Assembly (NCBI GenBank): GCA_902580335.1
Contig: CACHKE010000003.1
Location: forward strand, 1 to 64,000
Length of the DNA: 64,000 nt
Reading direction: 5' to 3'
From: an uncultured Pelagibacteraceae bacterium
GTDB lineage: Bacteria; Pseudomonadota; Alphaproteobacteria; Pelagibacterales; Pelagibacteraceae
Positions within the stretch are counted from its first letter, which is position 1. The number at the start of each line of letters is the position of its first letter. The position numbers were made by a program, and so were the translations under genes. Shown here piece after piece: positions 16,489 to 30,503 of this stretch. The notes under the pieces are model-generated. The model was not told where the DNA came from. It was given only the letters and a program-made list of their open reading frames with translations, and ran no database searches.

Positions 16489-17171
16489 AAAATTTAATAA
16501 ACATAGGAATACCTAGTAAGGGACGGTTGAGAAAAGATGTTTTAAAAATTTTTACCAAAAAAAAATTAAAGCTTATTTCTGAACGAGGAGAAAGAGATTT
16601 GATAGGTTCAATAAAAAATAAATTAAACATAAAAATTTTATATTTGCACGCTAGAGAAATTATTGAAAGATTAGGAGATGGTTCTTTAGATATCGGTTTT
16701 TCTGGTTTTGATTTATTAAAAGAAAGTGAGATAAATACCCAAAACAAAATAAATGTTATTAAAAAACTTAATTTTGGAAAAGCTAATTTAGTTGTAGCTA
16801 TACCGGATCCTTGGATTGATGTTCAAACAATAGCTGACTTAGAAGAAATTGCATTTGAATTTAGAGATAAAAAGAAAAAAAGATTAAGAGTTGCTACCAA
16901 GTACGCAAATTTGACCAGAGATTTTTTATTTTCTAAAGGTGTTACTCAATTTAAATTAGTTGATAGTTTAGGAGCAACTGAGGCGTACCCTTTTACTGGT
17001 TCAGCAGAATTGATCACAGACATAAGTTCAAGTGGTGAGACTTTAAGAGCAAATAATCTTAGAGTTTTAAAAGATGGAGAAATTTTAAAATCTCAAGCTT
17101 GTATTTTTACTTCAAAGAAAAACAGTAAAAAGAAGGGATTAAAAAACTTGATTAGACTACTTTCCAAGTAA
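16485..17171 (+). CDS. hisG: ATP phosphoribosyltransferase, short form
   Basis: NIGIPSKGRLRKD, GSLDIGFSGFDLL, DSLGATEAYPFTGSAELITDISSSGETLRANNLRVL. Confidence 0.93.
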   Translation: MKNLINIGIPSKGRLRKDVLKIFTKKKLKLISERGERDLIGSIKNKLNIKILYLHAREIIERLGDGSLDIGFSGFDLLKESEINTQNKINVIKKLNFGKANLVVAIPDPWIDVQTIADLEEIAFEFRDKKKKRLRVATKYANLTRDFLFSKGVTQFKLVDSLGATEAYPFTGSAELITDISSSGETLRANNLRVLKDGEILKSQACIFTSKKNSKKKGLKNLIRLLSK

Positions 17172-17288
17172 TTTATCTTTAAAATAAATAAGAATAATTT
17201 TGATTATATCTAGATTTCTTACAACAGCATATAAAGCAATAATTGAACCTAAAAAAAAAAGTACTTTAAATAAAAAAATAATATCCAT
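17157..17288 (-). CDS. Putative 43-aa single-TM microprotein (not in supplied ORF track)
   Basis: MDIIFLFKVLFFLGSIIALYAVVRNLDIIKIILIYFKDKLLGK; fills the gap and overlaps the hisG 3' end convergently. Confidence 0.4.
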   Translation of the reverse strand: MDIIFLFKVLFFLGSIIALYAVVRNLDIIKIILIYFKDKLLGK

Positions 17289-17290
17289 AT

Positions 17291-17467
17291 TTATTTTTTA
17301 TTTTTTAATGACAACAACCAATCTTGATATCTCATTGAACCTTTAAAGGAGTCTCTTCTACCCTTCCAATAGAGTTTTTTACTACCTTTAGCACTTTTGA
17401 TATATCCTTGAATTTGCTTCATGGTAAGGCCGTTTTGTTTTGGTTCCTTTATTCTTTTTCTTTTCAT
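17291..17467 (-). CDS. 58-aa basic hypothetical protein (not in supplied ORF track)
   Basis: MKRKRIKEPKQNGLTMKQIQGYIKSAKGSKKLYWKGRRDSFKGSMRYQDWLLSLKNKK; typical composition, ends minus-strand gene train. Confidence 0.6.
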   Translation of the reverse strand: MKRKRIKEPKQNGLTMKQIQGYIKSAKGSKKLYWKGRRDSFKGSMRYQDWLLSLKNKK

Positions 17468-17470
17468 AAA

Positions 17471-18055
17471 TTATAATTTTTCAGTATTAGTAATAATCTC
17501 TTTACACAGTTTATTAGCTTTAGAAATTGAAACAACAAGATTTTCTAATTTCCAATTATTGAAACGGATATCAAAATATTTTTCAGCCTTAAAATTAATC
17601 CCGTCAACGATTTCAATTTCATATTTTTTTTCCTCTGAATAAAATTCATTTAAAAAATAAACATATTCCCTAATAGGAAACACACCCAAACTAAACATTA
17701 CTTTATAACCTCTCGAAAAGGATTTGATATCCTCAACTTTGGCTGTGAGATCTAGACCATTTAATCTTATTGGTAAATGTTTATGTAAAAGTTGTTTAAT
17801 ATCACCTGGTCTCTCAAAAGTTAAAAATGTGAATGTATTCCAAATTTTATTACAATTATCTTCTGCAAGAATAAAAAAACTCAAAGCATCCCCATGTTGA
17901 ATTTCACCTGACACTTTTGCATATGTGAGTTTTTCAAATTTTTTTATAGCCCATTTTTCATCAGCTTTTGATAGATTTTTGTAATTTAGAAGTAGTGAGA
18001 AAATGAAAATTATTGATAGAAAAAAAATATTATAACTGATTTTATTTTTCATCAT
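17471..18055 (-). CDS. Hypothetical exported/periplasmic protein
   Basis: 194-aa ORF with N-terminal hydrophobic segment (NIFFLSIIFIFSLLLNY); no recognised family. Confidence 0.7.
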   Translation of the reverse strand: MMKNKISYNIFFLSIIFIFSLLLNYKNLSKADEKWAIKKFEKLTYAKVSGEIQHGDALSFFILAEDNCNKIWNTFTFLTFERPGDIKQLLHKHLPIRLNGLDLTAKVEDIKSFSRGYKVMFSLGVFPIREYVYFLNEFYSEEKKYEIEIVDGINFKAEKYFDIRFNNWKLENLVVSISKANKLCKEIITNTEKL

Positions 18056-18323
18056 TTATATTTTTTTCTAGTGTTTTTAGTTCCTCTATTCCTTCCATAG
18101 TATTACTTAAAATTTCGGATAATGTTTTTTTTGATTTTGCTACAATGTTTCCTGAGTTGTATGTAAATCTAGTTAGAGGTTTGTGATTAGTTTTAAACAT
18201 AAATAACAATTGATCTTTATCTTTTTTTCTTACACGAATATAAACACACCATTTACATATACTTTCAGGATTTTGTTTTTCAAATTCAATTTCCATATCA
18301 TCAATAGAAATAACTTTTGTCAT
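18042..18323 (-). CDS. Hypothetical protein (93 aa)
   Basis: ORF overlapping neighbours by a few nt in the same transcription unit. Confidence 0.6.
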   Translation of the reverse strand: MTKVISIDDMEIEFEKQNPESICKWCVYIRVRKKDKDQLLFMFKTNHKPLTRFTYNSGNIVAKSKKTLSEILSNTMEGIEELKTLEKNINDEK

Positions 18324-18508
18324 TAATGGATAGTATCCTCACAAATTTCAGATAATCTTTGTCTTAAAAGTTCTGGGCAAAGTTTACACTCTTCAAAAAC
18401 TTCTTTTCCTAAGTAAAATTTTCCTACTTGAATAATTGTTTTTACATTTTTGACTTTTTTTGTACCTTCACAGGCTGGGCAATTTGCTAAAATTTTATTT
18501 TTTCGCAT
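18323..18508 (-). CDS. Small CxxC zinc-ribbon-like hypothetical protein
   Basis: MRKNKILANCPACEGTKKV...ECKLCPELLRQRLSE, paired CxxC motifs; internal Met chosen as start. Confidence 0.6.
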   Translation of the reverse strand: MRKNKILANCPACEGTKKVKNVKTIIQVGKFYLGKEVFEECKLCPELLRQRLSEICEDTIH

Positions 18509-18821
18509 CAGACTTTTCATCCTCTAATTCTTTTTCAATCTTTTTGATTTTCTCATATCTTGAGATGATAAAATGAGCATCAATCATACCTTGAGCTATA
18601 AGGATAAAGATACCACATTTGATTAAAAAAGAGTTTTCTTGAATTATACCACTTGCTAAAAACAAACATCCTGCATTAGCTAATACAAAAAATATATTTC
18701 TAGCTGCATAAGGAACCTTTTCATCTTTTCCAAAAAAGTAAAACACTAAGCATGCTTGAAAAATTAATGTAGCTTTTGCAGCAAATAACATTGCTTTAAG
18801 CAGTAAAGGATCTGCTATCAA
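18495..18821 (-). CDS. Hypothetical multi-TM protein (108 aa)
   Basis: Three hydrophobic segments and a charged C-terminal tail; 4-nt overlap with HerA-like ORF. Confidence 0.65.
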   Translation of the reverse strand: MIADPLLLKAMLFAAKATLIFQACLVFYFFGKDEKVPYAARNIFFVLANAGCLFLASGIIQENSFLIKCGIFILIAQGMIDAHFIISRYEKIKKIEKELEDEKSDAKK

Positions 18822-20501
18822 TTAGCTCTCCTTCTGTCTATAGAAGTTATATTAGAGAAATCTTTAGCGAATTTTTTTCTTTGTTTAACAGACTCCTTGT
18901 CATCCCAATTTTCCACTGCAGAGATAAAATTTTCATTCCCAATATCATCGTTGATTAATTCAGCATCAAATTTAATTTGAACTGGAAGAGAGAAATTTAC
19001 TACTTGGCCACTAATTATACCTTGGCCGTTTGCAAGATTGGGTAATTGTTTAGAGTCGTCTACACTTAAAGTTTCAGAGTCTCTAGTAGTTGCTCTTTGG
19101 TCTTTTTGATTGACCATTCTAAATACAATTTGACTATTACATTGTGAAGCAATGGTTTCATCTAATCGTGATGGCCTTTGAGAAATAATCATTACCCCAG
19201 TTCCAAATTTTCTACCTTCGGTAATTACTTTTCGTATTGTATCGACTGATGGAAGGTTATCTTTATCCTCAGATCTTGACGGTATGAAATTATGAGCCTC
19301 TTCAATAATTGTTAAGAAAGGTGGAATTTCTTCTTCCACTTCTTGTCTATGTTTAAATAGATTTTCTAATAATATTGAGACAATTGCACTAGCTGGAAGA
19401 TTTTCATAACCTTTAAGATATAAAATACTTAGCTGCCCTTTATTAATAATTTTTTCTGGTTCAGTTGCAGCATCTGGTAATTCTTCGAACTTTAATTTAC
19501 TCATTTTTTGTCTATGTCTAAAGTTAGTTTGCTCCATATTTTTTAACTTTTTAGCAACTTGGCCAAGACTTCTAACCACAACATACATTGAAGCTGGACG
19601 AATATTTTTAAAAGATTTTGAGGAGTCTGATGCATACTCTCTAGCTTTTCGAACAAGTAGCTCGATATACTTTAGTAAACTACCACCTTCGTATTTAACT
19701 TTTTCTAATAGTGAGCTTAAAAAATCTTTTTGTGGATCTGTTAGTGAGTTTCCAAGTTTATCAATTAAAGTGTAAATGATTTCTTTGTCATCCGAGCTTA
19801 CAGATAAATTAGGATAAAATAATTTGACCTCATTTTTAGGATATAGTTTTTTTTTGTTTTTGGATGAATCCTAAATAATCACCGTGAATATCAAGTACTA
19901 ACATTGGATATTTTTTCTTTAAAAGTTCATCCATTATTCTTCTAACCATTACAGTTTTACCTGAGCCTGACATTCCAAAGATTGAAACATGACGAGATAC
20001 TAAATTATCAGCATCAATTTTAATTTTAACTGCATCTCTAGCTAGTAAACTTCCAATAAATAACGGATGTTTAGAGTTTAAATCAGAGATTAATAAAGCC
20101 TCTACATCTTCACTAGATGGATAACTCACTGGTGCAGCAGGTCTTACAGGATAGTTTAAGGGCATTAATTTTAAGTTATTTTTCAAAGTAAAACCTAAGA
20201 TGATAACTTTACAAATAAGCTCATCTCTGGTTGTTGGAAGAATAGTGTCTCTAATATTAATATTTTCATTTGTTAATTCTTGAGCAGCTTCAGTTGGAAA
20301 GAAAACATTTGAGCTTTCGATTGAGGAAATTTTACCCCAAACTGTTACTTCTTCAATTTTTCCCTCACTTGATGGAACTTTTGACTCTGTAGTGATGATG
20401 TCACCTTTTTTAGCTTTATAGTTTTTAAGGCTAAAGTAAAATTCACTTATATTAGTTTCACCCAAAACAGTACCGATTGATTTCCATTTTTTAGTATTCA
20501 T
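18818..20501 (-). CDS. HerA-like ATPase (HAS-barrel + DUF87), reading frame interrupted at A9 run (T9 on + strand, 19847-19855)
   Basis: N-part ORF 19836..20501 carries GMSGSGKTVMVRRIMDELL and LVLDIHGDYLGF; C-part continues in another frame (LYPKNEVKLFYPNLSVSSDDKEIIYTLIDKLGNSLTDPQKDF... into ORF 18818..19588 with FLTIIEEAHNFIPS, GVMIISQRPSRLDETIASQCNSQIVFRM). Confidence 0.85.
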
Positions 20502-21814
20502 TATCTTGCTAATCCTCCTAATGGTCTATTTCTCCAAGACCTTACTTTTTTTGATAAAATTTTTACTGCTAAACTGATCGTGTTCTGATCTTTACTTCTA
20601 ATAGCTTGTTTTAATAAATGAGTTGCATAATATTTTCTTGAGGCTTTACTCATCCAATTTGGAATTTTGGCAAATTTGTCGACTACATTTAAACCTACTG
20701 GAAAACCATAGTTAGGCAATAATTTAGCTGTAGCTAGAATATATTCATAATCTTTAATCAGGTTTTTTGATGGATTTAGTGTCTCAATTCTAATGGGCGC
20801 TGAATGATTATTAATCTTGATATATCCAATATGAACACTTGGAAAAGAGTCCATTTTATCTTCCCAAGCTGATCCTGAAGTAACACCAAATCCTTGAATT
20901 TGTTTTTTTACCTCAAGAGGTTTAATTGCTTGGCCACTTTGTAAAATTATTTCTAATAAGTGAGAGTCTGTAATTTTATATTTTTTGATAGTTGCAAGAG
21001 TGTTTTTAAAATCTTTTTCTGAGATAGTCCCTTTAGATTTATAGTTAAATAGTAAGTTTTTGATGTAGGGTGCTGAATTAGATGTTTCCACAATTCCATA
21101 GATAGGAAACTTACTTTTCTTAATAGAATTAAGAGCCTCTAAATAAACATTGATGAAATGTCTTGCTTCTGCATTAAGCTTATTTTTACTATAAAAAGGA
21201 AGCATATTTTCAACAGCAAATTTAGTAAATGTTGGAAAACCCATTACTGTAAAGGGCATTACAGTTGCTTCAATAGGGCCATGTAAAAAGCAGTAATCAA
21301 ATTTTCTATTTAACAAAATGTGTTTAACAATAGTGACTGCTTCAAAAATTATTCTAGCACCATCTTTTTTCTTATTAAGCATTTGATCTTCATCAAAATC
21401 GTCTTCCGCAAAGTCATACAGTTCGTTTTTAGGGTCATATAGATCACCTAAAAACACCATACTTTCCTCAAAGAATTCTCTATTTTTATCTGCAGCATCT
21501 GGCTTAACGATGTAGCTACCAGTTCTAATACTAAGTGGTGCGCTACTGATTATAGATGTTTTATCAACTCCACCATCAACAAAGCATGAAGTTTTACATT
21601 TATTTTCAGACCAGAAATCTTTTCCTTTGTATTCAAGATTTATAATTAAATCTGCATCTTCTAAAATCTTCTGAACAGTAAGAGCAACTTGAGTGCTGAC
21701 ATCTAGAAAGTTGTTTTGTACTTTTGGAGATGCTGAAACAGCATTTTTTACAAAATTAGTAAATAAAGATGAGTTTGATTTTATTTTATTTTTAATATCT
21801 GTTTCGTTACTCAT
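20501..21814 (-). CDS. NurA-like nuclease domain protein
   Basis: Adjacent to HerA; CFVDGGVDKTSI, CFLHGPIEATVMPF, YGIVETSNSAPYIKNLL resemble NurA motifs. Confidence 0.6.
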   Translation of the reverse strand: MSNETDIKNKIKSNSSLFTNFVKNAVSASPKVQNNFLDVSTQVALTVQKILEDADLIINLEYKGKDFWSENKCKTSCFVDGGVDKTSIISSAPLSIRTGSYIVKPDAADKNREFFEESMVFLGDLYDPKNELYDFAEDDFDEDQMLNKKKDGARIIFEAVTIVKHILLNRKFDYCFLHGPIEATVMPFTVMGFPTFTKFAVENMLPFYSKNKLNAEARHFINVYLEALNSIKKSKFPIYGIVETSNSAPYIKNLLFNYKSKGTISEKDFKNTLATIKKYKITDSHLLEIILQSGQAIKPLEVKKQIQGFGVTSGSAWEDKMDSFPSVHIGYIKINNHSAPIRIETLNPSKNLIKDYEYILATAKLLPNYGFPVGLNVVDKFAKIPNWMSKASRKYYATHLLKQAIRSKDQNTISLAVKILSKKVRSWRNRPLGGLAR

Positions 21815-22200
21815 CTGTTTGCTCCATAAAAATATTGAATTTTAGTTCCTCGAATATTTGTTCGAATAGTTAATTTTTTATTTGAAAGTCTGTTAAATCG
21901 TCTTTTTAAAATTTGTTTAAATACCCAGCATGATTTTCTGCTAGTAAAGCTTCTTAAATGAATTTTAGTAACTTTATTTTTAGCCTTAGTATTGCAGCTG
22001 TTGAAAGACCCTTGGTTATGTAAGAAAGGAAAATGGAGAGATCCAAGGGTACGAGGCGTTGCCGCTACTCGACAGCTGCTTTTACTAAAGCTAATTACGT
22101 TATTTGAAGTGGACCTCCTGTTGTTAAGTTTATTTTTAAAGTTAAAACGCATAACCATATACATACTCCCAAGACTAGTTTGGTAAACGATACCCATCAT
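21811..22200 (-). CDS. Hypothetical 129-aa basic ORF of atypical composition
   Basis: ATGA overlap with the nurA-like start supports translation, but the central region is dominated by nested inverted repeats. Confidence 0.35.
   Translation of the reverse strand: MMGIVYQTSLGSMYMVMRFNFKNKLNNRRSTSNNVISFSKSSCRVAATPRTLGSLHFPFLHNQGSFNSCNTKAKNKVTKIHLRSFTSRKSCWVFKQILKRRFNRLSNKKLTIRTNIRGTKIQYFYGANR
21994..22079. repeat. Nested perfect inverted repeats with three-way-junction folding potential
   Basis: GCAGCTGT(21994-22001)/ACAGCTGC(22072-22079); ACCCTTGG(22008-22015)/CCAAGGGT(22043-22050); CGAG-GCG-loop-CGC-TA-CTCG(22052-22071). Confidence 0.8.
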
Positions 22201-23086
22201 GCTGTTGTACTTTTTGGGAAATACTTTTTATTAAGAAAGAAAATCGTTGTTTTGAAATATTTAAGGTATTCTTAATAAATCCTTTATCATTTCCATTATT
22301 AAGTAAATATAAAAGTTCCCATTCTTTTTGAGTTAAGATTTGTTTATACTCATCGATATTTCTTTGATTATTTTTTTCTATATAATGATCTTCTAAATTT
22401 TGAGGTTGATTAACTGTTGGATCAATTATTCCTTCTGTTGCTGCAAAATCAACAAAACTCCAGAGATCTCTATCATCAAAATTACTTTCACTTATATGAT
22501 TTTCATTATCAATACCTTGATGAATGAATTGAACTTCTTTTAACGTCTCTATTTTGCAATCAAATTCTTTGATGAGTATTGAGTCTTCTATCTTGGTACT
22601 AATATCAAGCTTTAATTTTTTTCTAATTTTTTTTAGTTTTTTATAATAATTGTAGAAAACTTTTTTAAATTCTGCTCCTTTTTCAACACTGAATAGAGGA
22701 TCGTAATTTGTCTTTTTTTTATTAAGATATTTAGAAATATTAAGACAAATTGTTTTTGTAAAAGCACCACTTTTGTCCTTATGAGCTCCTTTCGTCTTAT
22801 CAAATGAATTAATACCGTTGATTATTCCTTTAATACCAGTTTGAATTATGTCCTCTCTATGCCATGGGTTTGAATTTTGGCCATTAAATATTCTCTTAGA
22901 ATCTTTCAATACTTTAGGAAGGTATCTATTGATTATTAATGTCTTAGCGTATTGTGATTGAGAATTATTGGCTTTAGCAATATCTAAAAGTTCAAGATCA
23001 GTCTTTTTTTTGATGTTATTTGGGAGCTTTTCGCAATAGATTTTTATTGCTAAAAGAAAGTTATATTGTGTGTTTTTGTGCTGCAT
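22175..23086 (-). CDS. Divergent sigma-70 family (RpoH-like) factor
   Basis: Region 2-like REDIIQTGIKGIINGINSFDKTKG..GAFTKTICLNISKYL, RpoH-box-like EFKKVFYNYYKKLKKIRKKL, C-terminal HTH LTQKEWELLYLLNNGNDKGFIKNTLNISKQRFSFLIKSISQKV. Confidence 0.6.
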   Translation of the reverse strand: MQHKNTQYNFLLAIKIYCEKLPNNIKKKTDLELLDIAKANNSQSQYAKTLIINRYLPKVLKDSKRIFNGQNSNPWHREDIIQTGIKGIINGINSFDKTKGAHKDKSGAFTKTICLNISKYLNKKKTNYDPLFSVEKGAEFKKVFYNYYKKLKKIRKKLKLDISTKIEDSILIKEFDCKIETLKEVQFIHQGIDNENHISESNFDDRDLWSFVDFAATEGIIDPTVNQPQNLEDHYIEKNNQRNIDEYKQILTQKEWELLYLLNNGNDKGFIKNTLNISKQRFSFLIKSISQKVQQHDGYRLPN

Positions 23087-23197
23087 TCATAAGTCTGATG
23101 CACAAAAAATTATTTACTCTTATAGTCTTATTTATTCTTGGAATTCTTATCTGTCAACGATCTGATATAAATCTTATATTACAAAAAAGTAGCAAAT

Positions 23198-24301
23198 TTA
23201 AGGCAGTTTCTCTCTTTTTTTTGCATCCTGGATCAAATAATTAGAAATATCCCTCATTTGTGAGATGTTTTTATTAGTTACCACTGTTAATTCCATCTTA
23301 TTGTTCAATTTTGAGTTGTTATTTTCATCCACAATTTCCACTCCAAAGTCACTTTTTATTGCGTAAAAATTTATATTCTCAATTTTTGTACTTTGATTAA
23401 TTTTTTTACCTAAAATCCAATGTCTTTTATGTTTCCATCCTAGATGACCAGGCATATCTTTTTGTTTAATAATTTTTACCTTAGCTTTAATTTTATTTTC
23501 TTTGTTATTATAAAACAACAATTCTTCAATCTTGCTCTCTAGTAATTTTATCTCATTATATGTAATAGTTTTTTTTTGCTCTTTACTAAGGCAAGAAGGG
23601 ATATCTGTAAGAACCTTAAATTCTGATGGTCTTATATTTTCGGGTAATTTTTGCCACCATTTATAAAGTAAATTAACTCCGTATTCTATTTTTCTTAAAT
23701 TTTCTAAAATATATCCAAAAGATTTATTTTTGAAATCAATAAGACTTGGACAAAAAATACTATCTTGATTAGGTAATACATAATTACTTAATTCTTTATG
23801 GTAAATATTTACCATATTAATTTTTTCTTCACGAGAAGAAGCTTTGGATTGTATAAAAATTTTTAATTTTCCTAAAAATTTTATTGAAAATTCGTCGGTA
23901 CTATTTTTAAAATCTTCTGGGTAAAAATTTCCTTCGAGTATTTTTATTTTTAACTCCCTGTCAATTTGATTTTTAAAATCCTTTATAAAGTCAATTGGTA
24001 TTTCACTTTTTTCTTTTTCGCCAGTTTTGAATTCAAGACTTTGATTTAAATTATTAAGGGCATCTTCTAATAAAACTTTTTTTTCCGTAAGGGATAAATT
24101 ATTTAAACTATCATTTGATAAATCATTAATTATTTTTCCTAAAAATTGTTTGATATCATTTTTAGAATCTGAAATAAGAATAGCTTTTTGATTAAGATTA
24201 AAATCACTTAAGTCTATATTAAAATTACTTAGATCATTAGATTTCAATTCTTTAAAATTCTTAAAATAGTTACGATCTATTGAATAAGTAACAAAAGGCA
24301 T
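23198..24301 (-). CDS. Hypothetical protein, likely partner of the upstream ATPase
   Basis: ATG within 2 nt of the ATPase stop (TAATATG); no recognised family. Confidence 0.7.
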   Translation of the reverse strand: MPFVTYSIDRNYFKNFKELKSNDLSNFNIDLSDFNLNQKAILISDSKNDIKQFLGKIINDLSNDSLNNLSLTEKKVLLEDALNNLNQSLEFKTGEKEKSEIPIDFIKDFKNQIDRELKIKILEGNFYPEDFKNSTDEFSIKFLGKLKIFIQSKASSREEKINMVNIYHKELSNYVLPNQDSIFCPSLIDFKNKSFGYILENLRKIEYGVNLLYKWWQKLPENIRPSEFKVLTDIPSCLSKEQKKTITYNEIKLLESKIEELLFYNNKENKIKAKVKIIKQKDMPGHLGWKHKRHWILGKKINQSTKIENINFYAIKSDFGVEIVDENNNSKLNNKMELTVVTNKNISQMRDISNYLIQDAKKREKLP

Positions 24302-24302
24302 A

Positions 24303-26774
24303 TTAAGATGTAAGTATTTCCATTCTTTCAGTAAAAAAGCCACCAGGCCATTTTTTTTCAAATCCACCTTGCGAATTTAATGGAAGATGATGAACTTCAG
24401 AGTCTCCTAATTTATTTCTTGAAATGAAGTTTATCGATACTTCATTTGATTTTAAAATTCCTTTTTGAACTAGCTTTTGTACTTGTAGGACAAATAACTC
24501 ACTATGTGTTTCTAAAATAAAAGTTCTAGAGACTCTACTTTTGATGATTCTTGCTATTAATTCAATTATTTTAGATTGATATTTTGGATGCCAATTATTT
24601 TCTAATTCTTGAACAAGATATGTTAAGTTTGGTCGATCAGATAAAATTTGAGCTAAAAAAGGTATAATATTAGTTGGACCTTTACCAACTTCTTCTCCGT
24701 GAATATAGAATTTTCTTTTAAATTTTAAATCTTGCAACATAATAAATTTATTTCTTCTGTACATGCCCATACCTGTCGGATACATCAAGCCTCGTCGTTG
24801 TGCATTTCTAAACGCATTGTATAAACTTGGATCCTTAAGAATTTTTTTAAGAAATTTTGGTGTAATTATTACTAGTTTTAAATTTAAAACATCTTTTAAT
24901 ATTTTATTTAATTCTTTTAATAATTTAGGATTATTTGAAATTATATTATCGAAATTCGCTCCATTAGCTGAAATTCTATGCGCATCTATTACTCTTTTTT
25001 GCCTTTCGACAAATTCTTTTCGAATTTTTTCATCTTGTGCAGCTATTTCTGATCTACTCAATTTTTTTTCTTTAGCTAATTTTTCAATTTTTTCTAAAAA
25101 ATCTTCTGGATAATCACCTTCATTTGGAACTGACCAAAAAACATCAGTCTTATTAGGGTGGCAAATAATTAAATTATTAACAATTTTTTTAATTTCAGAA
25201 ATACATTTTCTAAAAACATTTAAACTCGGGTTAAACAATGGTGCTGGTTCTATATTTCCAAATAGGTCTTTGCCTTTATAGAATACATTATTAGATCCAT
25301 TTTCAATAAATTTAGTTATATATCGAAAAATACCGTATGTTGTATGAGAATGCTGGCCATTTTCTCTTATTTGCCAAAACATTACGTTTGAACTTTTTTT
25401 TGTGGCTCTAACTTTGTAAAGAGCTTTAGTTTCAGAAATGGCATGATTAGCAAACTGTAAAAAAGTCTTTGGTTTCTTTCCTTTTAACAAATTGTCGATT
25501 ACAAAAAAGTTTATATTACTGTAATCCTCAGATAACATCATTGCAAATTCTATCTCACAACGCTTTTTAAAATTCATTTCTTTAAATTTTTTACCAGCTT
25601 TAGTCTCATAAAAAACCTCATCTTCTGCAAATTGAATATTTAGCTGATTAAGAAAATTTTTATCTTTGACATAATTTTTCGAAAGTCTATCTAACCATTT
25701 TTTATCTGCAGGTTTTATTTTTGCAGGTTTGTTTTTAAAGTTAATTTCAAAACTTTTAAGATGTTGATTACATTTGTCTATTTCGTCTTTGATCAATTCT
25801 ATATTTTTTGAACTATTATCTTTTTCAATTATTTTTTTTACTAAATGATAAATGCTTACCTTTAAGGGATCTTTTTCAATTAGTGATGGACCAAAATATT
25901 TATAGCTTAAAATTCTATCAGACAAAAATTTAAAAGCCTCTTTTCTGAATTGAATATTTGTATCTTCTTTGAAAGTGTTTTTGTAAGAGTCATAATAATT
26001 TTGCCAAGATTTTTTTCCTGTAATGATTTCATAATCACTGTAAAGTTCTTTATCAACGAAATAATCAGGTTCTGCTATTGGCCTGCCCCTATGATAAGTG
26101 CCACTATATCTATCTGGTCTTGCTAAAATTCTAGAAAATCTCTCACTAATATATCCCACTTCATGAATATCAGTTATTTTTTTATAATTTTTGTCTATTC
26201 TCTTTAATTTAACTAATCTTTCATCATTATCTTTTTTAATTTCAATACTTTCAATTTTACTTGATTTTTTTTTCTTATAATATTTTATTGAAATAATCAT
26301 TTTAATCGGAATAGACAAAACTTCTTCTTTTTTTACAGAAATTTTTTTATCTGGTGTAAAATAAGTAGCTACAGATGGTAAAGATTTATCGCTGCTAAAT
26401 TGATGGTAAATAGTTTTTTTTTTCACATTATCAAAATAGTTACTTAAATCATTAACAAATGTTGGGTAATGAATATCCATATTTATTTCAATATTTATAT
26501 TTTTTTTATTCAGCCTTGATGTGTAGTAGTGAATTTTTTTTGAGGAAATATTTTGAATATTTTCATTTCTATAAAATGGAGTATCTTTTTGGCTAACATT
26601 TTTGCCTCTTTTTACTTCTTGTTCAGAAAAAATATTATGTATGATATCAAAAGTTTTTAATAAGGTCGTTTTTCCAGAACTATTTTCACCATATAGTAGT
26701 GTTAATGGAGCTATATTTAAGTTTTGCTCTTTTGAAAATGTTTTTATATTTTTTATAGTTATTTGTTTGTACAT
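24303..26774 (-). CDS. Large AAA (SMC/OLD-type, DUF3696-like C-terminus) ATPase
   Basis: Walker A LLYGENSSGKTTLLKTF; C-terminal TNIIPFLAQIL..LVQELENNWHPKYQSKIIELIARI..FILETHSELFVLQVQKLV..GGFEKKWPGGFFTER. Confidence 0.8.
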   Translation of the reverse strand: MYKQITIKNIKTFSKEQNLNIAPLTLLYGENSSGKTTLLKTFDIIHNIFSEQEVKRGKNVSQKDTPFYRNENIQNISSKKIHYYTSRLNKKNINIEINMDIHYPTFVNDLSNYFDNVKKKTIYHQFSSDKSLPSVATYFTPDKKISVKKEEVLSIPIKMIISIKYYKKKKSSKIESIEIKKDNDERLVKLKRIDKNYKKITDIHEVGYISERFSRILARPDRYSGTYHRGRPIAEPDYFVDKELYSDYEIITGKKSWQNYYDSYKNTFKEDTNIQFRKEAFKFLSDRILSYKYFGPSLIEKDPLKVSIYHLVKKIIEKDNSSKNIELIKDEIDKCNQHLKSFEINFKNKPAKIKPADKKWLDRLSKNYVKDKNFLNQLNIQFAEDEVFYETKAGKKFKEMNFKKRCEIEFAMMLSEDYSNINFFVIDNLLKGKKPKTFLQFANHAISETKALYKVRATKKSSNVMFWQIRENGQHSHTTYGIFRYITKFIENGSNNVFYKGKDLFGNIEPAPLFNPSLNVFRKCISEIKKIVNNLIICHPNKTDVFWSVPNEGDYPEDFLEKIEKLAKEKKLSRSEIAAQDEKIRKEFVERQKRVIDAHRISANGANFDNIISNNPKLLKELNKILKDVLNLKLVIITPKFLKKILKDPSLYNAFRNAQRRGLMYPTGMGMYRRNKFIMLQDLKFKRKFYIHGEEVGKGPTNIIPFLAQILSDRPNLTYLVQELENNWHPKYQSKIIELIARIIKSRVSRTFILETHSELFVLQVQKLVQKGILKSNEVSINFISRNKLGDSEVHHLPLNSQGGFEKKWPGGFFTERMEILTS

Positions 26775-26888
26775 ATCATTAAAACTTGATTAAAAAATAT
26801 TGTCTTAATAATATATCTATTCCTCATTTTAACATAAAATTATTTTTTTCTTGTTTACTTTAATGAAAGAGGGAATAATTAAGATATT

Positions 26889-27983
26889 ATGCAAGATTCG
26901 TTAATATATTTACTTTTAGCTCTTATTGTTGTGGTGATTTTTTTATTACTTAAACAAAGAAGTAATAACAATAATCAAAGTGAAAATAAAGAAGCTGAGG
27001 AATTGGCTAATTTAAATGCTGAAATAGTGAGGTTAAAAGACAGCCTTAATTCCACAATTAATACATCACTAAGCTCGATGTCTACTTCATTTAACTCTTT
27101 ATCAACTGGGGTTACAAAAGATATGACCGAGGCCTTAACTAAAGTCGATGAGAAAGTTGGGAATTTTAACGAACAAGTAAAATTGCTAAATCAAAGCCAA
27201 GAGGGGATTACTAAAATTTTAGCAGGGGTTAAAAAGTATGGAACTTTGGCTGAATATTCTTTGGATGCTCTAATTAAAGATTTATTACCTGCGTCTCAAT
27301 ATATGACAAATGTCAAAATGAAAGAAGATACAAGTGAAAACGTAGAATTTGCAATCAAGCTTCAAGGGGATGTTTTGGTTCCGGTAGATTCTCATTTTCC
27401 AGTAGAAAAATTTAAGGCAATTACAGATGCGCACGAGGCAGATGATAAGAAGGCAGTTGCTGATGCTAGAACAAAATTAGCAAGTGCATTTAAGGCTAAA
27501 GCAAAAAGTGTCATGGAAAAATATATTGTTCCACCTAAAACTTCAAATTTTGCAATAGTGTACGCTCCTACAGAAAGTCTTTATAAAGAGTTAACTGAGT
27601 ATCAAGACCCAAGCAGTAAAGAGCTATTGACACAAGAATTAATGAAAAAATATAAAATAGTAATTTGTGGCCCAAATACTCTTTCAGCTTACCTACAGTC
27701 TTTACACATGGGCTTTCAGTCTCTTAAAATTTCAAAACACGCAACAGAGATTTATGATCATTTAAAAACTATAAGCACGAGATTTTCTAGTCATTTTGAT
27801 AATATTTATAAATTAAGAAAAAAACTTGAAGAGGCTATGACAGTTGTTGATAGTTTTGGAAAAGATGCAAGATCAATTACTAGAACTTTAGAAAATATAA
27901 AAGATCCCGAGCAAGTTGAAAAAGCTGTTCTAACAGAGAACGTTGAGAGTTTTGTTGAAAGAAATAAACAAGTCAAAAAATAA
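26889..27983 (+). CDS. rmuC: DNA recombination protein RmuC family
   Basis: N-terminal TM, coiled coil, then KYGTLAEYSLDALIKDLLPASQY..DVLVPVDSHFPVEKF. Confidence 0.85.
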   Translation: MQDSLIYLLLALIVVVIFLLLKQRSNNNNQSENKEAEELANLNAEIVRLKDSLNSTINTSLSSMSTSFNSLSTGVTKDMTEALTKVDEKVGNFNEQVKLLNQSQEGITKILAGVKKYGTLAEYSLDALIKDLLPASQYMTNVKMKEDTSENVEFAIKLQGDVLVPVDSHFPVEKFKAITDAHEADDKKAVADARTKLASAFKAKAKSVMEKYIVPPKTSNFAIVYAPTESLYKELTEYQDPSSKELLTQELMKKYKIVICGPNTLSAYLQSLHMGFQSLKISKHATEIYDHLKTISTRFSSHFDNIYKLRKKLEEAMTVVDSFGKDARSITRTLENIKDPEQVEKAVLTENVESFVERNKQVKK

Positions 27984-28020
27984 TTTCTTTTTTCAGATAA
28001 TACCGTCTATAAGAAATCAC

Positions 28021-28710
28021 ATGCGTTGGAACAAAAAATATGACTATCCTACGAGTTCAAGAGCGACAGAAGATGGAGTAAGAAGATACGTATTAGGAGA
28101 AGCAAAGTTACCGAGTGTAACTTCAATACTTGATGCAACTAAATCCGAGGAAGATAAAGCAGCTTTAGCTAATTGGAGAGAGAGAACTGGTCACAAAGAA
28201 GCTGAAGCTATTACTAAGGCTGCAAGCAGCAGAGGTTCTCAGATGCATAGCTATTTAGAGTCTTTTCTTTTGGGAAGAGAAAATTTGAGTTTCTTTGAAG
28301 ACAATGAGCAATATAAAAAAATGGCAAAAGAGATTATTGATAAAGGTTTAACAAACAGACTAGAGGAAATATATGGTGTGGAGGCCACTATGCATTATCC
28401 TGATAGATATGCAGGAACAGCAGATTGCGTCGGTGTTTATGAAGGAAAAGAAACGATAATTGATTTTAAGCAGTCCAACAAACCAAAAAAAATTGAGTAC
28501 ATAGATTCTTGGTTTTTACAAACTGCAGCTTACTCTTTAGCACATAATGTTGTTTATAATTCAAACATTAATGCATGTGTTATTCTAGTCTGCACAGTTG
28601 ATAATTTGTTTCAAGAGTTTAAGATTCAAGGGCCAGAACTGATAACATATCAAAATTTGTTTTTAGGTAGATTAAAAAAATTTAATGAGATGAATAATTT
28701 GGTTCAATAA
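28021..28710 (+). CDS. PD-(D/E)XK exonuclease-like protein
   Basis: LPSVTSILDATK, RGSQMHSYLESFL, YAGTADCVGVYEGKETIIDFKQSNKPK, WFLQTAAYSLA; start shifted to MRWNKKYDYPTS. Confidence 0.8.
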   Translation: MRWNKKYDYPTSSRATEDGVRRYVLGEAKLPSVTSILDATKSEEDKAALANWRERTGHKEAEAITKAASSRGSQMHSYLESFLLGRENLSFFEDNEQYKKMAKEIIDKGLTNRLEEIYGVEATMHYPDRYAGTADCVGVYEGKETIIDFKQSNKPKKIEYIDSWFLQTAAYSLAHNVVYNSNINACVILVCTVDNLFQEFKIQGPELITYQNLFLGRLKKFNEMNNLVQ

Positions 28711-28714
28711 AAAA

Positions 28715-30151
28715 ATGGATAAAATTGTAATTTACGATACAGAGACAACAAACTCAACAATATGGGGATCCATAATTGAAGTTGGAGCTGTTGTAGTTGA
28801 TAAAAATTTAAAAGAAATTGGAAAGTTAAACATCCGAGGCCGTATGCCAGAGGGAGAAGTACCCAGTGCAAAAGCGTTGCTAGTAAATTCGACTAGTATT
28901 GATTTATTAACTAAAGGCAATTATTCACATTATGATTTTTTAGGTGCTGTTGAAAATTTTTTTTCAAAATGTGCCCCAGCAATGTTTATGGGCTGGTCAA
29001 ATTTAAATTTTGATCGAAGAATGTTTCACTTTAATTTTTTTAAGGGTAATCGTTATCCTTATGCTACTCACTCATCGCCTAATAGTGAGCATGATGGTTT
29101 ACACATAGCCAGGGCAGCTCAAACCTTAAATTCTGAAACTTTAAAAACAGAATTAACTGAGGCGGGAAACCCAAGCTTAGCATTAGAATCCTTATCAAGA
29201 ATGCAGGGTTTTGACACTTCAGCAAGCCATACTGCCTACGTTGATGCTCAAAATTCATTAAAGGTCCTTCGAATTATTAAAGATAAACATAAAGAAAATT
29301 GGGAAACATTTTTAAAAACATCAACTAAAACTAGCGTAGAAACGTTTTTAAAAAATGAAGGCATATATTCTATTTTTGAAAATGTGAAGGGTAGAAATAT
29401 GATGTATCTCACTAGCACACTTCATCCAAATCATTGTTTTCATCCATCTTACGCATCGTGGGGATATGTTTGGGATTTAAGAAGAGATCCAGAACCATTA
29501 TTTAATTTATCAGTAAATCAGTTAAGAGATATATTAAAAAAATATAGTCCTAAGGCTACAAGAGTTTTAAAAACCAATAAAGCTCCAGTAATTTTGGATA
29601 AAGAGTTTGCCTTAAAACAAAAACCCTATTCAGACCTAGATTTAGAAACAATAAAAAAAAGAGCACAAATGGTCAGAAATAATGAAAATTTTTGTAAAAA
29701 TATACAAATTATAAATAGAGAGGCAGCAGAGGAAAAGGAGCAAACTAAAACCCAGGAAGATTTGTTACCTGAAGAGACTTTGTATGAAAAATTTATTCCT
29801 AATAAAGATACTGCTCTTTTTAAAACCTGGCATAGTTCATCTTGGGAAGAAAAGTTGAGAATGCTAGATAAATTTACAGACAAAAGATGTAGCTGGTTTG
29901 GTCAAAAAATAATTTATCAAGAGGCCCCTCAAATTTTACCACCCGATTTATATAAAAATATTAAAAGTGAAATTGCTAGACGTATATTAAGCAAGAATAA
30001 GGAAAAGTGGCAAACTGTTAATATGGCATATAGTGAAATCGATTATTTGAGAGATCAAGCAGATAAAAGAGATGATAAAATTGAATTAAATAAACTAGAG
30101 GAAATAAATGATTTTATTATGTCTATTGAAAAGAAATATGAAATTGCCTAG
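28715..30151 (+). CDS. Exodeoxyribonuclease I-like 3'-5' exonuclease
   Basis: DEDDh motifs IYDTETTNS, FMGWSNLNFDRRMF, SHTAYVDAQNSLKVL; ExoI-like C-terminal region. Confidence 0.85.
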   Translation: MDKIVIYDTETTNSTIWGSIIEVGAVVVDKNLKEIGKLNIRGRMPEGEVPSAKALLVNSTSIDLLTKGNYSHYDFLGAVENFFSKCAPAMFMGWSNLNFDRRMFHFNFFKGNRYPYATHSSPNSEHDGLHIARAAQTLNSETLKTELTEAGNPSLALESLSRMQGFDTSASHTAYVDAQNSLKVLRIIKDKHKENWETFLKTSTKTSVETFLKNEGIYSIFENVKGRNMMYLTSTLHPNHCFHPSYASWGYVWDLRRDPEPLFNLSVNQLRDILKKYSPKATRVLKTNKAPVILDKEFALKQKPYSDLDLETIKKRAQMVRNNENFCKNIQIINREAAEEKEQTKTQEDLLPEETLYEKFIPNKDTALFKTWHSSSWEEKLRMLDKFTDKRCSWFGQKIIYQEAPQILPPDLYKNIKSEIARRILSKNKEKWQTVNMAYSEIDYLRDQADKRDDKIELNKLEEINDFIMSIEKKYEIA

Positions 30152-30185: not shown

Positions 30186-30503
30186 ATGCTTATAGATTTT
30201 AAAGATGAAGATTTTGAAAACAAAATTAAAAATGAAGACGTTTCAGTAATCCAGTTTAGTGCAGCTTGGTGTGGCCCTTGCAAATCTCTAAAACCAATTA
30301 TGGATAAACTTGCAGTTGAGTATAAGGAGAAAGCTGGTTTTTATTACGCTGATATAGAAGATGGCGGCATTAATACGGGAAGTGCAGCTGGAATAAGAGG
30401 TGTTCCAACAGTTATTATCTATAAAAAAGGTGTTGAGGTTGATAGAAAAGTTGGTGGCGTTCCCGAAAGCCACATGAAAGAGTTTTTAGAAAAAAATATC
30501 TAA
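30186..30503 (+). CDS. Thioredoxin
   Basis: FSAAWCGPCKSLKPIMDKLA..GIRGVPTVIIYKKG. Confidence 0.92.
   Translation: MLIDFKDEDFENKIKNEDVSVIQFSAAWCGPCKSLKPIMDKLAVEYKEKAGFYYADIEDGGINTGSAAGIRGVPTVIIYKKGVEVDRKVGGVPESHMKEFLEKNI

Follow-up and report, generated by a model that had tools for sequence, protein, structure and literature searches.

A predicted mobile HerA-NurA island with a swappable, putative sigma-factor cassette: a candidate anti-phage locus of SAR11 bacteria

The locus described here raises the question of whether a long run of DNA-processing genes in a SAR11 genome forms a single unit, and whether it serves genome maintenance or defence. It lies in a stretch of 64,000 nucleotides (the window) on contig CACHKE010000003.1 of an uncultured Pelagibacteraceae bacterium (assembly GCA_902580335.1), a draft genome whose nearest relatives are single-cell genomes of Pelagibacteraceae (SAR11). 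The region is bounded by hisG (end at 17171) and the thioredoxin gene trx (start at 30186). A preliminary description, made from the sequence alone, had listed the open reading frames (ORFs) there, which we found as listed, and had suggested that a minus-strand train and a plus-strand trio constitute one unrecognised genome-maintenance or defence module. The genes that it named (HerA, NurA, a sigma-like factor, an ATPase, RmuC, a PD-(D/E)XK and an ExoI-like protein) were confirmed at their places by both ORFs and family searches. Our analysis indicates that the train, an accessory island, is exchanged horizontally and appears to be run by its own sigma factor, and an anti-phage role is, with moderate confidence, its most likely function.

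The trio stands outside the mobile unit. It includes rmuC (26889..27983, plus strand; PF02646, 1.4e-49), a PD-(D/E)XK exonuclease gene (27943..28710, plus strand; phrog_298, 2e-48) and exoI, encoding an ExoI-like 3'-5' exonuclease (28715..30151, plus strand; Exonuc_X-T_C, 7.5e-15), all as had been proposed. Among 150 related genomes, exoI is present in 125, hisG in 120, and NurA in 8. We further analyzed draft genomes of the same genus in which a single contig carries hisG and exoI in colinear order, reading the interval between the two genes by hand from the listed coordinates. This interval is 0.7-3.3 kb in 53 genomes, mostly ∼2 kb, corresponding to rmuC and the PD-(D/E)XK gene (e.g., loci L060 and L066), and 10.6-11.9 kb in seven genomes that possess the island, while three genomes have different cargo. 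Since most intervals hold only rmuC and the PD-(D/E)XK gene and seven hold the island, the trio is core and the minus-strand train (17.3-26.8 kb) is a separate accessory insertion between hisG and rmuC, which adjoin in empty-site genomes. A single mobile module of train and trio is thus ruled out by near-universal exoI, patchy NurA and the empty sites. The proposed test of synteny and phyletic pattern therefore divides the suggested module: the train is patchy and is jointly gained and lost at one site, yet it is under strong purifying selection, whereas the trio is near-universal. The idea of an unrecognised defence module survives as a prediction for the patchy, mobile train, and not for the housekeeping trio.

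The insertion site between hisG and rmuC is a defence hotspot, because in other strains it is occupied by Dnd or methyltransferase and nuclease genes. The cargo of genome G012 comprises dnd genes (DndB, PF14072, 7e-122; DndC/D/E-like by sequence), that of G010 a C5-methyltransferase-like gene and a PD-(D/E)XK_5 nuclease, and that of G042 a similar methyltransferase. In G097, from another family, Z1/DUF4420/HATPase-like genes are found close to exoI and trx. Adjoining the Dnd genes of G012 at the same site is a gene (L061:11724-13649, minus strand) for a 641-aa protein with two RNA polymerase alpha C-terminal domains and a sigma-70 region 4, a predicted further island-encoded transcription factor. 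In addition, an alternative RmuC-like protein (389-395 aa) and three small genes replace rmuC in G010, G042 and G033 (L063:4937-7305, L064:6382-8813, L065:2085-4507).

Scanning of ∼85,000 GTDB species genomes with a NurA alignment identified 23 loci, all titled Pelagibacteraceae or Pelagibacter except one labelled Proteobacteria. The island is carried by 21 of them, and as far as the contigs reach the gene order is ATPase-PAR-SIG-o129-NurA-HerA-TM-CxxC-p93-(variable end), where PAR is the ATPase partner, SIG the sigma-like protein, o129 the gene of the former 129-aa ORF, TM a small multi-transmembrane protein and p93 a conserved 93-aa protein. A scan of viral contigs revealed no relative of NurA, and a viral origin of NurA was dropped. 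The ratio of nonsynonymous to synonymous divergence (dN/dS) of NurA and HerA is about 0.03-0.07, which indicates strong purifying selection. In locus L073, HerA and NurA are 98% and 97% identical, with synonymous divergence (dS) of 0.46 and 0.37 (NurA compared with the window, HerA with L071), while rmuC, exoI and folC are 69%, 51% and 47% identical with dS of 2.0, 2.6 and 1.5. Because the dS of NurA and HerA is far below that of the flanking core genes, the island appears to move horizontally between lineages.

The conserved backbone of the island includes herA (18818..20501, minus strand) and nurA (20501..21814, minus strand). HerA is a hexameric double-stranded DNA translocase that feeds DNA to the NurA nuclease. 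The window HerA, of the HerA/FtsK family, matches PF01935 (DUF87, 6.8e-22) and HerA_C (5.4e-5); the best-matching solved chains belong to HerA proteins (4.8e-46), the nearest being an archaeal-type DNA helicase, and the Walker A (GMSGSGKT) and EEAH motifs are invariant or nearly so among homologues. NurA matches PF09376 (5.2e-5, exceeding the curated cut-off), as do seven of eight homologues. Its Asp80-Gly-Gly is invariant in homologues, and the second DG-type motif is HGP; a sequence search of the Protein Data Bank (PDB) gave no match to NurA and recovered no solved NurA. Both families of the HerA/NurA-like pair are therefore supported by domain matches, but herA is not one intact ORF in the window, its frame being interrupted by a single additional base within the run of A near 19855. 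The L071 relative is intact and differs by 14 further substitutions over 1,680 bases (99% identical). Two observations concern other HerA-NurA loci. In L086, L088 and L090, nurA and herA are separated by an inserted 220-aa ORF (e.g., L090:11311-11970) that bears a GIY-YIG-like motif (YIGKGNLKSRVKEH; Pfam DUF7508 only, sub-threshold). In L092 (9103-13050) and L093, a distant pair of HerA and NurA (27-44% identity) occupies a different chromosomal site, and the genes ahead of it encode a 274-aa protein carrying a DksA/TraR zinc finger and another of 108 aa.

The opposite end of the train is formed by the ATPase (24303..26774), PAR (23198..24301) and SIG (22175..23086), all on the minus strand. 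The ATPase is of the OLD/AAA_21 type (AAA_21, 1.1e-15) with the conserved motifs GENSSGKT (Walker A), QELENNWHP (Walker B) and ETHSE. Its nearest solved structures are the OLD nuclease, AriA and PtuA, and among the PADLOC models AriA matches at 4e-13, with NsnB and PDC-M55A scoring higher. The preliminary description had seen a DUF3696-type ATPase pair; one ATPase is present, but DUF3696 is sub-threshold (0.004) and the partner belongs to no recognisable family, as PAR has no match in Pfam, PADLOC (including the AriB and PtuB models) or NCBIfam. PAR was also considered as a divergent PLD/MIT_C fold on the basis of IxLFDP and VDRH motifs, seen by eye in types 2 and 3, which align with each other over this segment (hhalign, 96%); type 1 fails to align, and this assignment is not claimed.

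The ATPase, PAR and SIG are swapped as one block between island copies. Outside the ATPase C-terminus, BLAST does not relate the types, of which there are at least five (T1 to T5), to one another, and the swap is seen even at 97-99% NurA identity, with T1 in the window, T3 in L071, T2 in L073 and T4 in L074. Thus, the NurA proteins of the window and L071 are 99% identical, while SIG and PAR have no BLAST match and the ATPases are 34% identical in the C-terminus only. In G132, from another family, an ATPase-PAR-SIG trio without NurA and HerA (L029:8397-15338) is followed by a ResIII-type helicase and lies beside exoI-rmuC-trx. Since this trio adjoins a ResIII helicase instead of NurA and HerA, it suggests that ATPase-PAR-SIG is a control module able to pair with different effectors.

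Sigma-70 domains can be recognised in all cassette types, which is consistent with the sigma-like factor of the preliminary description. The window SIG matches TIGR02937 (sigma70-ECF superfamily, 2.1e-7) over residues 51-295, under the curated cut-off. The SIG proteins of T3, T5 and G132 match Sigma70_r4 (1e-5 to 2e-14), that of T4 matches region 2, and T2 gives a weak match (0.0046). Searched against the PDB, a T3 SIG profile recovers chains of SigA and RpoH, aligned across regions 3-4; at ∼1e-15 it also finds ∼300-residue (RpoH-sized) proteins in most relatives, while the full-length T3 SIG is found in G051 only among the 150 genomes. By these domain matches, SIG is predicted to be a sigma-70-family factor.

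The junctions at the head of the island are mostly tight or overlapping, with the exceptions of a gap of 69-150 bp before SIG and one of 40-121 bp separating rmuC from the ATPase gene. Sequence is shared to a greater extent among gaps within a cassette type than among those from different types in all three comparisons (SIG versus ATPase direction, SIG versus rmuC direction, ATPase versus rmuC direction), with p = 0.0002 each, the floor of 5,000 permutations; this comparison fits no motif. It replaced a Gibbs search on the SIG gaps alone, which settled on the TTGAC flank in T1 and on a GCAGC element by the SIG start in T2 and T3 and failed to predict the other gap. The shared elements resemble promoters, consisting of TTGAA or TTGAC, ∼12 bases and a type-specific -10-like core, GGAATANATA in T1, CGGTTATATAA in T2 and CGTATATCT in T3. 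In the window, T1 sites are located upstream of SIG (TTGAC...AAGAATAAATA, 23127..23157, minus strand), towards the ATPase (GAGGAATAGATATA, 26812..26825, minus strand) and towards rmuC (GAGGGAATAATTAA, 26869..26882, plus strand). By regular expressions composed after inspection of the data, the cores occur at the three own-type sites in 1/5 (the SIG gap), 5/5 and 4/5 loci for T1, 6/7, 6/7 and 7/7 for T2, and 5/5, 4/5 and 5/5 for T3, and never at sites of other types. Each of four T2 genomes has exactly one copy of the full T2 motif, located upstream of SIG, and T1 and T3 genomes have none; in L029, of the other family, repetition of a motif was unconvincing. A separate conserved element, GGCAGCA or GAGCAGCCACC, precedes the SIG start by 4-8 nt in every T2 locus and in three T3 loci (e.g., L078, L082 and L071).

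The motifs are thus tied to the sigma type, as for a dedicated sigma factor, and SIG would be the protein that recognises them. Through the rmuC-facing site, the core rmuC-exo-exoI operon has apparently been placed under the island's sigma factor, and this site therefore links the train and the core trio that the preliminary description had seen together. T3 cores are also present upstream of rmuC without the island in two of 22 empty-site genomes, G085 (L101) and G070 (L107), in neither of which was a full-length T3 SIG found. The simplest reading is that these cores are a probable scar of island loss.

Between SIG and nurA lies o129 (21811..22152, minus strand), which encodes a basic protein with homologues in 20 genomes. 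The 129-aa ORF called previously is a real gene, but its start is probably the ATG at 22152, 16 codons downstream of the first call, giving 113 aa. A spurious ORF is ruled out by a frame open in 20 genomes, by frame-neutral indels (one +7/-1 pair, in L086) and by a well-folding C-terminal half. In an AlphaFold2 (AF2) model, the predicted local distance difference test score (pLDDT) is mostly about 75-93 for residues 81-129, a beta-alpha-beta-beta fold, and mostly 40-58 for earlier residues, the N-terminal half being predicted disordered. A fold search returned no significant hit (best E 0.23, Pcc1-like). Synonymous divergence of o129 is lower than that of NurA at most of the same loci (e.g., dS 0.41 versus 1.30). 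Because the frame is kept and the C-terminal half folds, yet dS is suppressed, this stretch is both coding and RNA.

The RNA element (21982..22092, minus strand), which overlaps the o129 frame, consists of nested hairpins with 28 pairs, of which 11 show double compensatory changes, and 95.9% of cells are paired. These measures were reached by none of 500 shuffles and by no slid control. Its GC content is 43%, compared with 29% in the window, and the sequence AGGAGGT (AGGAGGU in RNA) just upstream of it is invariant in 20/20 genomes. G-U pairs (e.g., U-G in 14/20 at one pair) place the RNA on the nurA strand. A covariance model gives E of about 1e-33 or better in seven island genomes only, the remaining matches being ∼0.02 or weaker, and no Rfam family matches the element. 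It is possible that this is an operon-internal regulatory element or a processed RNA. The RNA and the swappable sigma/promoter cassette are additions to what had been described before.

Combining these observations, we propose the following scheme. In the effector backbone, HerA would feed DNA to NurA, alongside the small accessory proteins and the structured RNA overlapping the gene for the basic protein. In the swappable control cassette, which is inherited as one block, an OLD/AAA_21 ATPase and PAR would be combined with a dedicated sigma-70-family factor, and the cognate sigma would read type-specific sites in front of the SIG-o129-nurA-herA operon, the ATPase-PAR operon and the divergent rmuC-exo-exoI operon. 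ATPase-PAR may sense infection or DNA damage and then release or activate the sigma factor, which would amplify itself and switch on HerA-NurA and the captured exonucleases; these may in turn degrade (phage) DNA. With a private sigma factor, the system could keep running even if host transcription is disabled or hijacked by a phage, and swapping of the cassette could allow escape from phage counter-measures. It can be speculated, more tentatively than for the anti-phage role itself, that this is a new class of immune system built around a swappable transcription circuit, in which an OLD-type ATPase and its partner gate a private sigma factor inducing HerA-NurA and a core exonuclease operon, with the structured RNA as an integral part, and which diversifies in sigma/promoter specificity and not in the effector. 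The open-access literature, with subscription journals mostly outside it, yielded neither a defence system equipped with a sigma factor of its own nor a HerA-NurA system so composed.

Several points weigh against this interpretation. PAR lacks a recognisable family and is modelled poorly by AF2 (pLDDT 52); the PADLOC check proposed earlier gave hits to generic HerA and ATPase families alone, with no complete known defence system and no match to NurA; the frameshift in the window herA is either a sequencing error or decay; and the interval counts of carriers rest on draft single-amplified and metagenome-assembled genomes. Concerning the promoters, the SIG gap shows the T1 motif only weakly, and of the two analyses only the permutation test is free of fitting. 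A repair or recombination role also fits the HerA-NurA enzymes equally well, and the main rival explanation is an accessory repair module in which damage would induce sigma-driven end resection by HerA-NurA with RmuC and ExoI, without any antiviral function. Studies in archaea and Deinococcus have treated the pair as a machine for end resection (PMC12977600), and co-regulation with rmuC and exoI, whose families are linked to recombination, would suit such a module. However, the island is patchy and horizontally moved, its control part is hypervariable and block-swapped, its slot houses Dnd or methyltransferase and nuclease genes in other strains, and a 2026 study of T. kodakarensis preferred an antiviral role of HerA-NurA to resection (PMC12977600). 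We regard the repair module as unlikely, though less so than the other alternatives. Repair machines, as a rule, are part of the core genome.

The promoter-like sites could also be operators of a cassette repressor (PAR, or SIG as a DNA-binding regulator), with SIG not being an active promoter-selective sigma factor. This would agree with the back-to-back pair of motifs in the gap between rmuC and the ATPase gene and with T1 and T2 SIG falling under the curated cut-offs for Sigma70 regions; we consider it improbable, as the sites have a promoter-like layout at plausible distances to the starts and as T3 SIG aligns with SigA and RpoH over regions 3-4 and T4 SIG matches region 2. Least probable of all, in our judgement, is that the island is a degenerate or domesticated element derived from a phage or an integrative and conjugative element, with a sigma factor, a HerA-like packaging or conjugation ATPase and a nuclease but no defence function. 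HerA does resemble the phage family phrog_7035 and a terminase-like family, phages carry sigma factors, and the insertion is at a fixed site, but neither the ORFs nor the family matches include an integrase, portal, capsid or relaxase, no viral contig encodes NurA, and strict order and strong purifying selection hold across 21 genomes.

The remaining genes of the train, all on the minus strand, are small. A 108-aa multi-transmembrane protein (18495..18821) and a 65-aa CxxC protein (18323..18520) follow herA, and next to them is p93 (18042..18323); the three have no Pfam match and conserved order, for the latter two in nearly all carriers. The variable end contains an accessory exported or signal-anchored 194-aa protein (17471..18055; no Pfam match), which is 38-97% identical in most carriers and is replaced or absent in the rest, and, at the hisG end, a 58-aa ORF (17291..17467) with 76-100% identity in L071, L074 and L077. 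Outside the island, a 281-282-aa ORF, sulfotransferase-like by eye, is located between hisZ and hisG in some genomes (L063:1631-2476; L077, L078, L083-L085, L091) and is absent in others.

Phage infection is heavy among SAR11 bacteria, which dominate the surface oceans. Their streamlined genomes are nevertheless thought to contain little defence, and the locus offers a concrete, testable defence candidate in this group. It suggests a principle for which the literature searched holds no precedent, namely that an accessory DNA-processing or immune module can have a promoter language of its own, which is changed by cassette exchange while the effector is kept, and which extends its reach to a neighbouring core operon. 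The covarying, single-copy RNA in the operon is a further new element.

The island resembles several known systems in part. With the archaeal and Deinococcus HerA-NurA complex it shares adjacent nurA and herA genes, the PF09376 and DUF87/HerA_C domains and an archaeal-type nearest solved HerA; it differs in being accessory and alphaproteobacterial, in its ATPase-PAR-sigma cassette, RNA element and small proteins, and in an operon without a Mre11-Rad50 partner. HerA-SIR2 and HerA-DUF4297 are antiviral systems that likewise have a HerA translocase beside a nuclease or effector in a patchy, defence-type locus, but the partner in the island is NurA, family searches found no SIR2 or DUF4297 match among the island proteins, and descriptions of those systems include no dedicated sigma factor, cognate promoters or RNA. 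In PARIS (AriA/AriB) and Septu (PtuA/PtuB), an OLD-type ATPase and its partner protein serve as phage sensors and effectors, and here too an AAA_21/OLD-like ATPase adjoins an unrelated partner; in contrast to both systems, PAR matches neither the AriB nor the PtuB model and the pair is co-inherited with the sigma factor. Finally, the Dnd genes of G012 share with the island the insertion site between hisG and the exonuclease genes and an encoded unusual transcription protein, whereas their enzymology, DNA modification by phosphorothioation, is unrelated.

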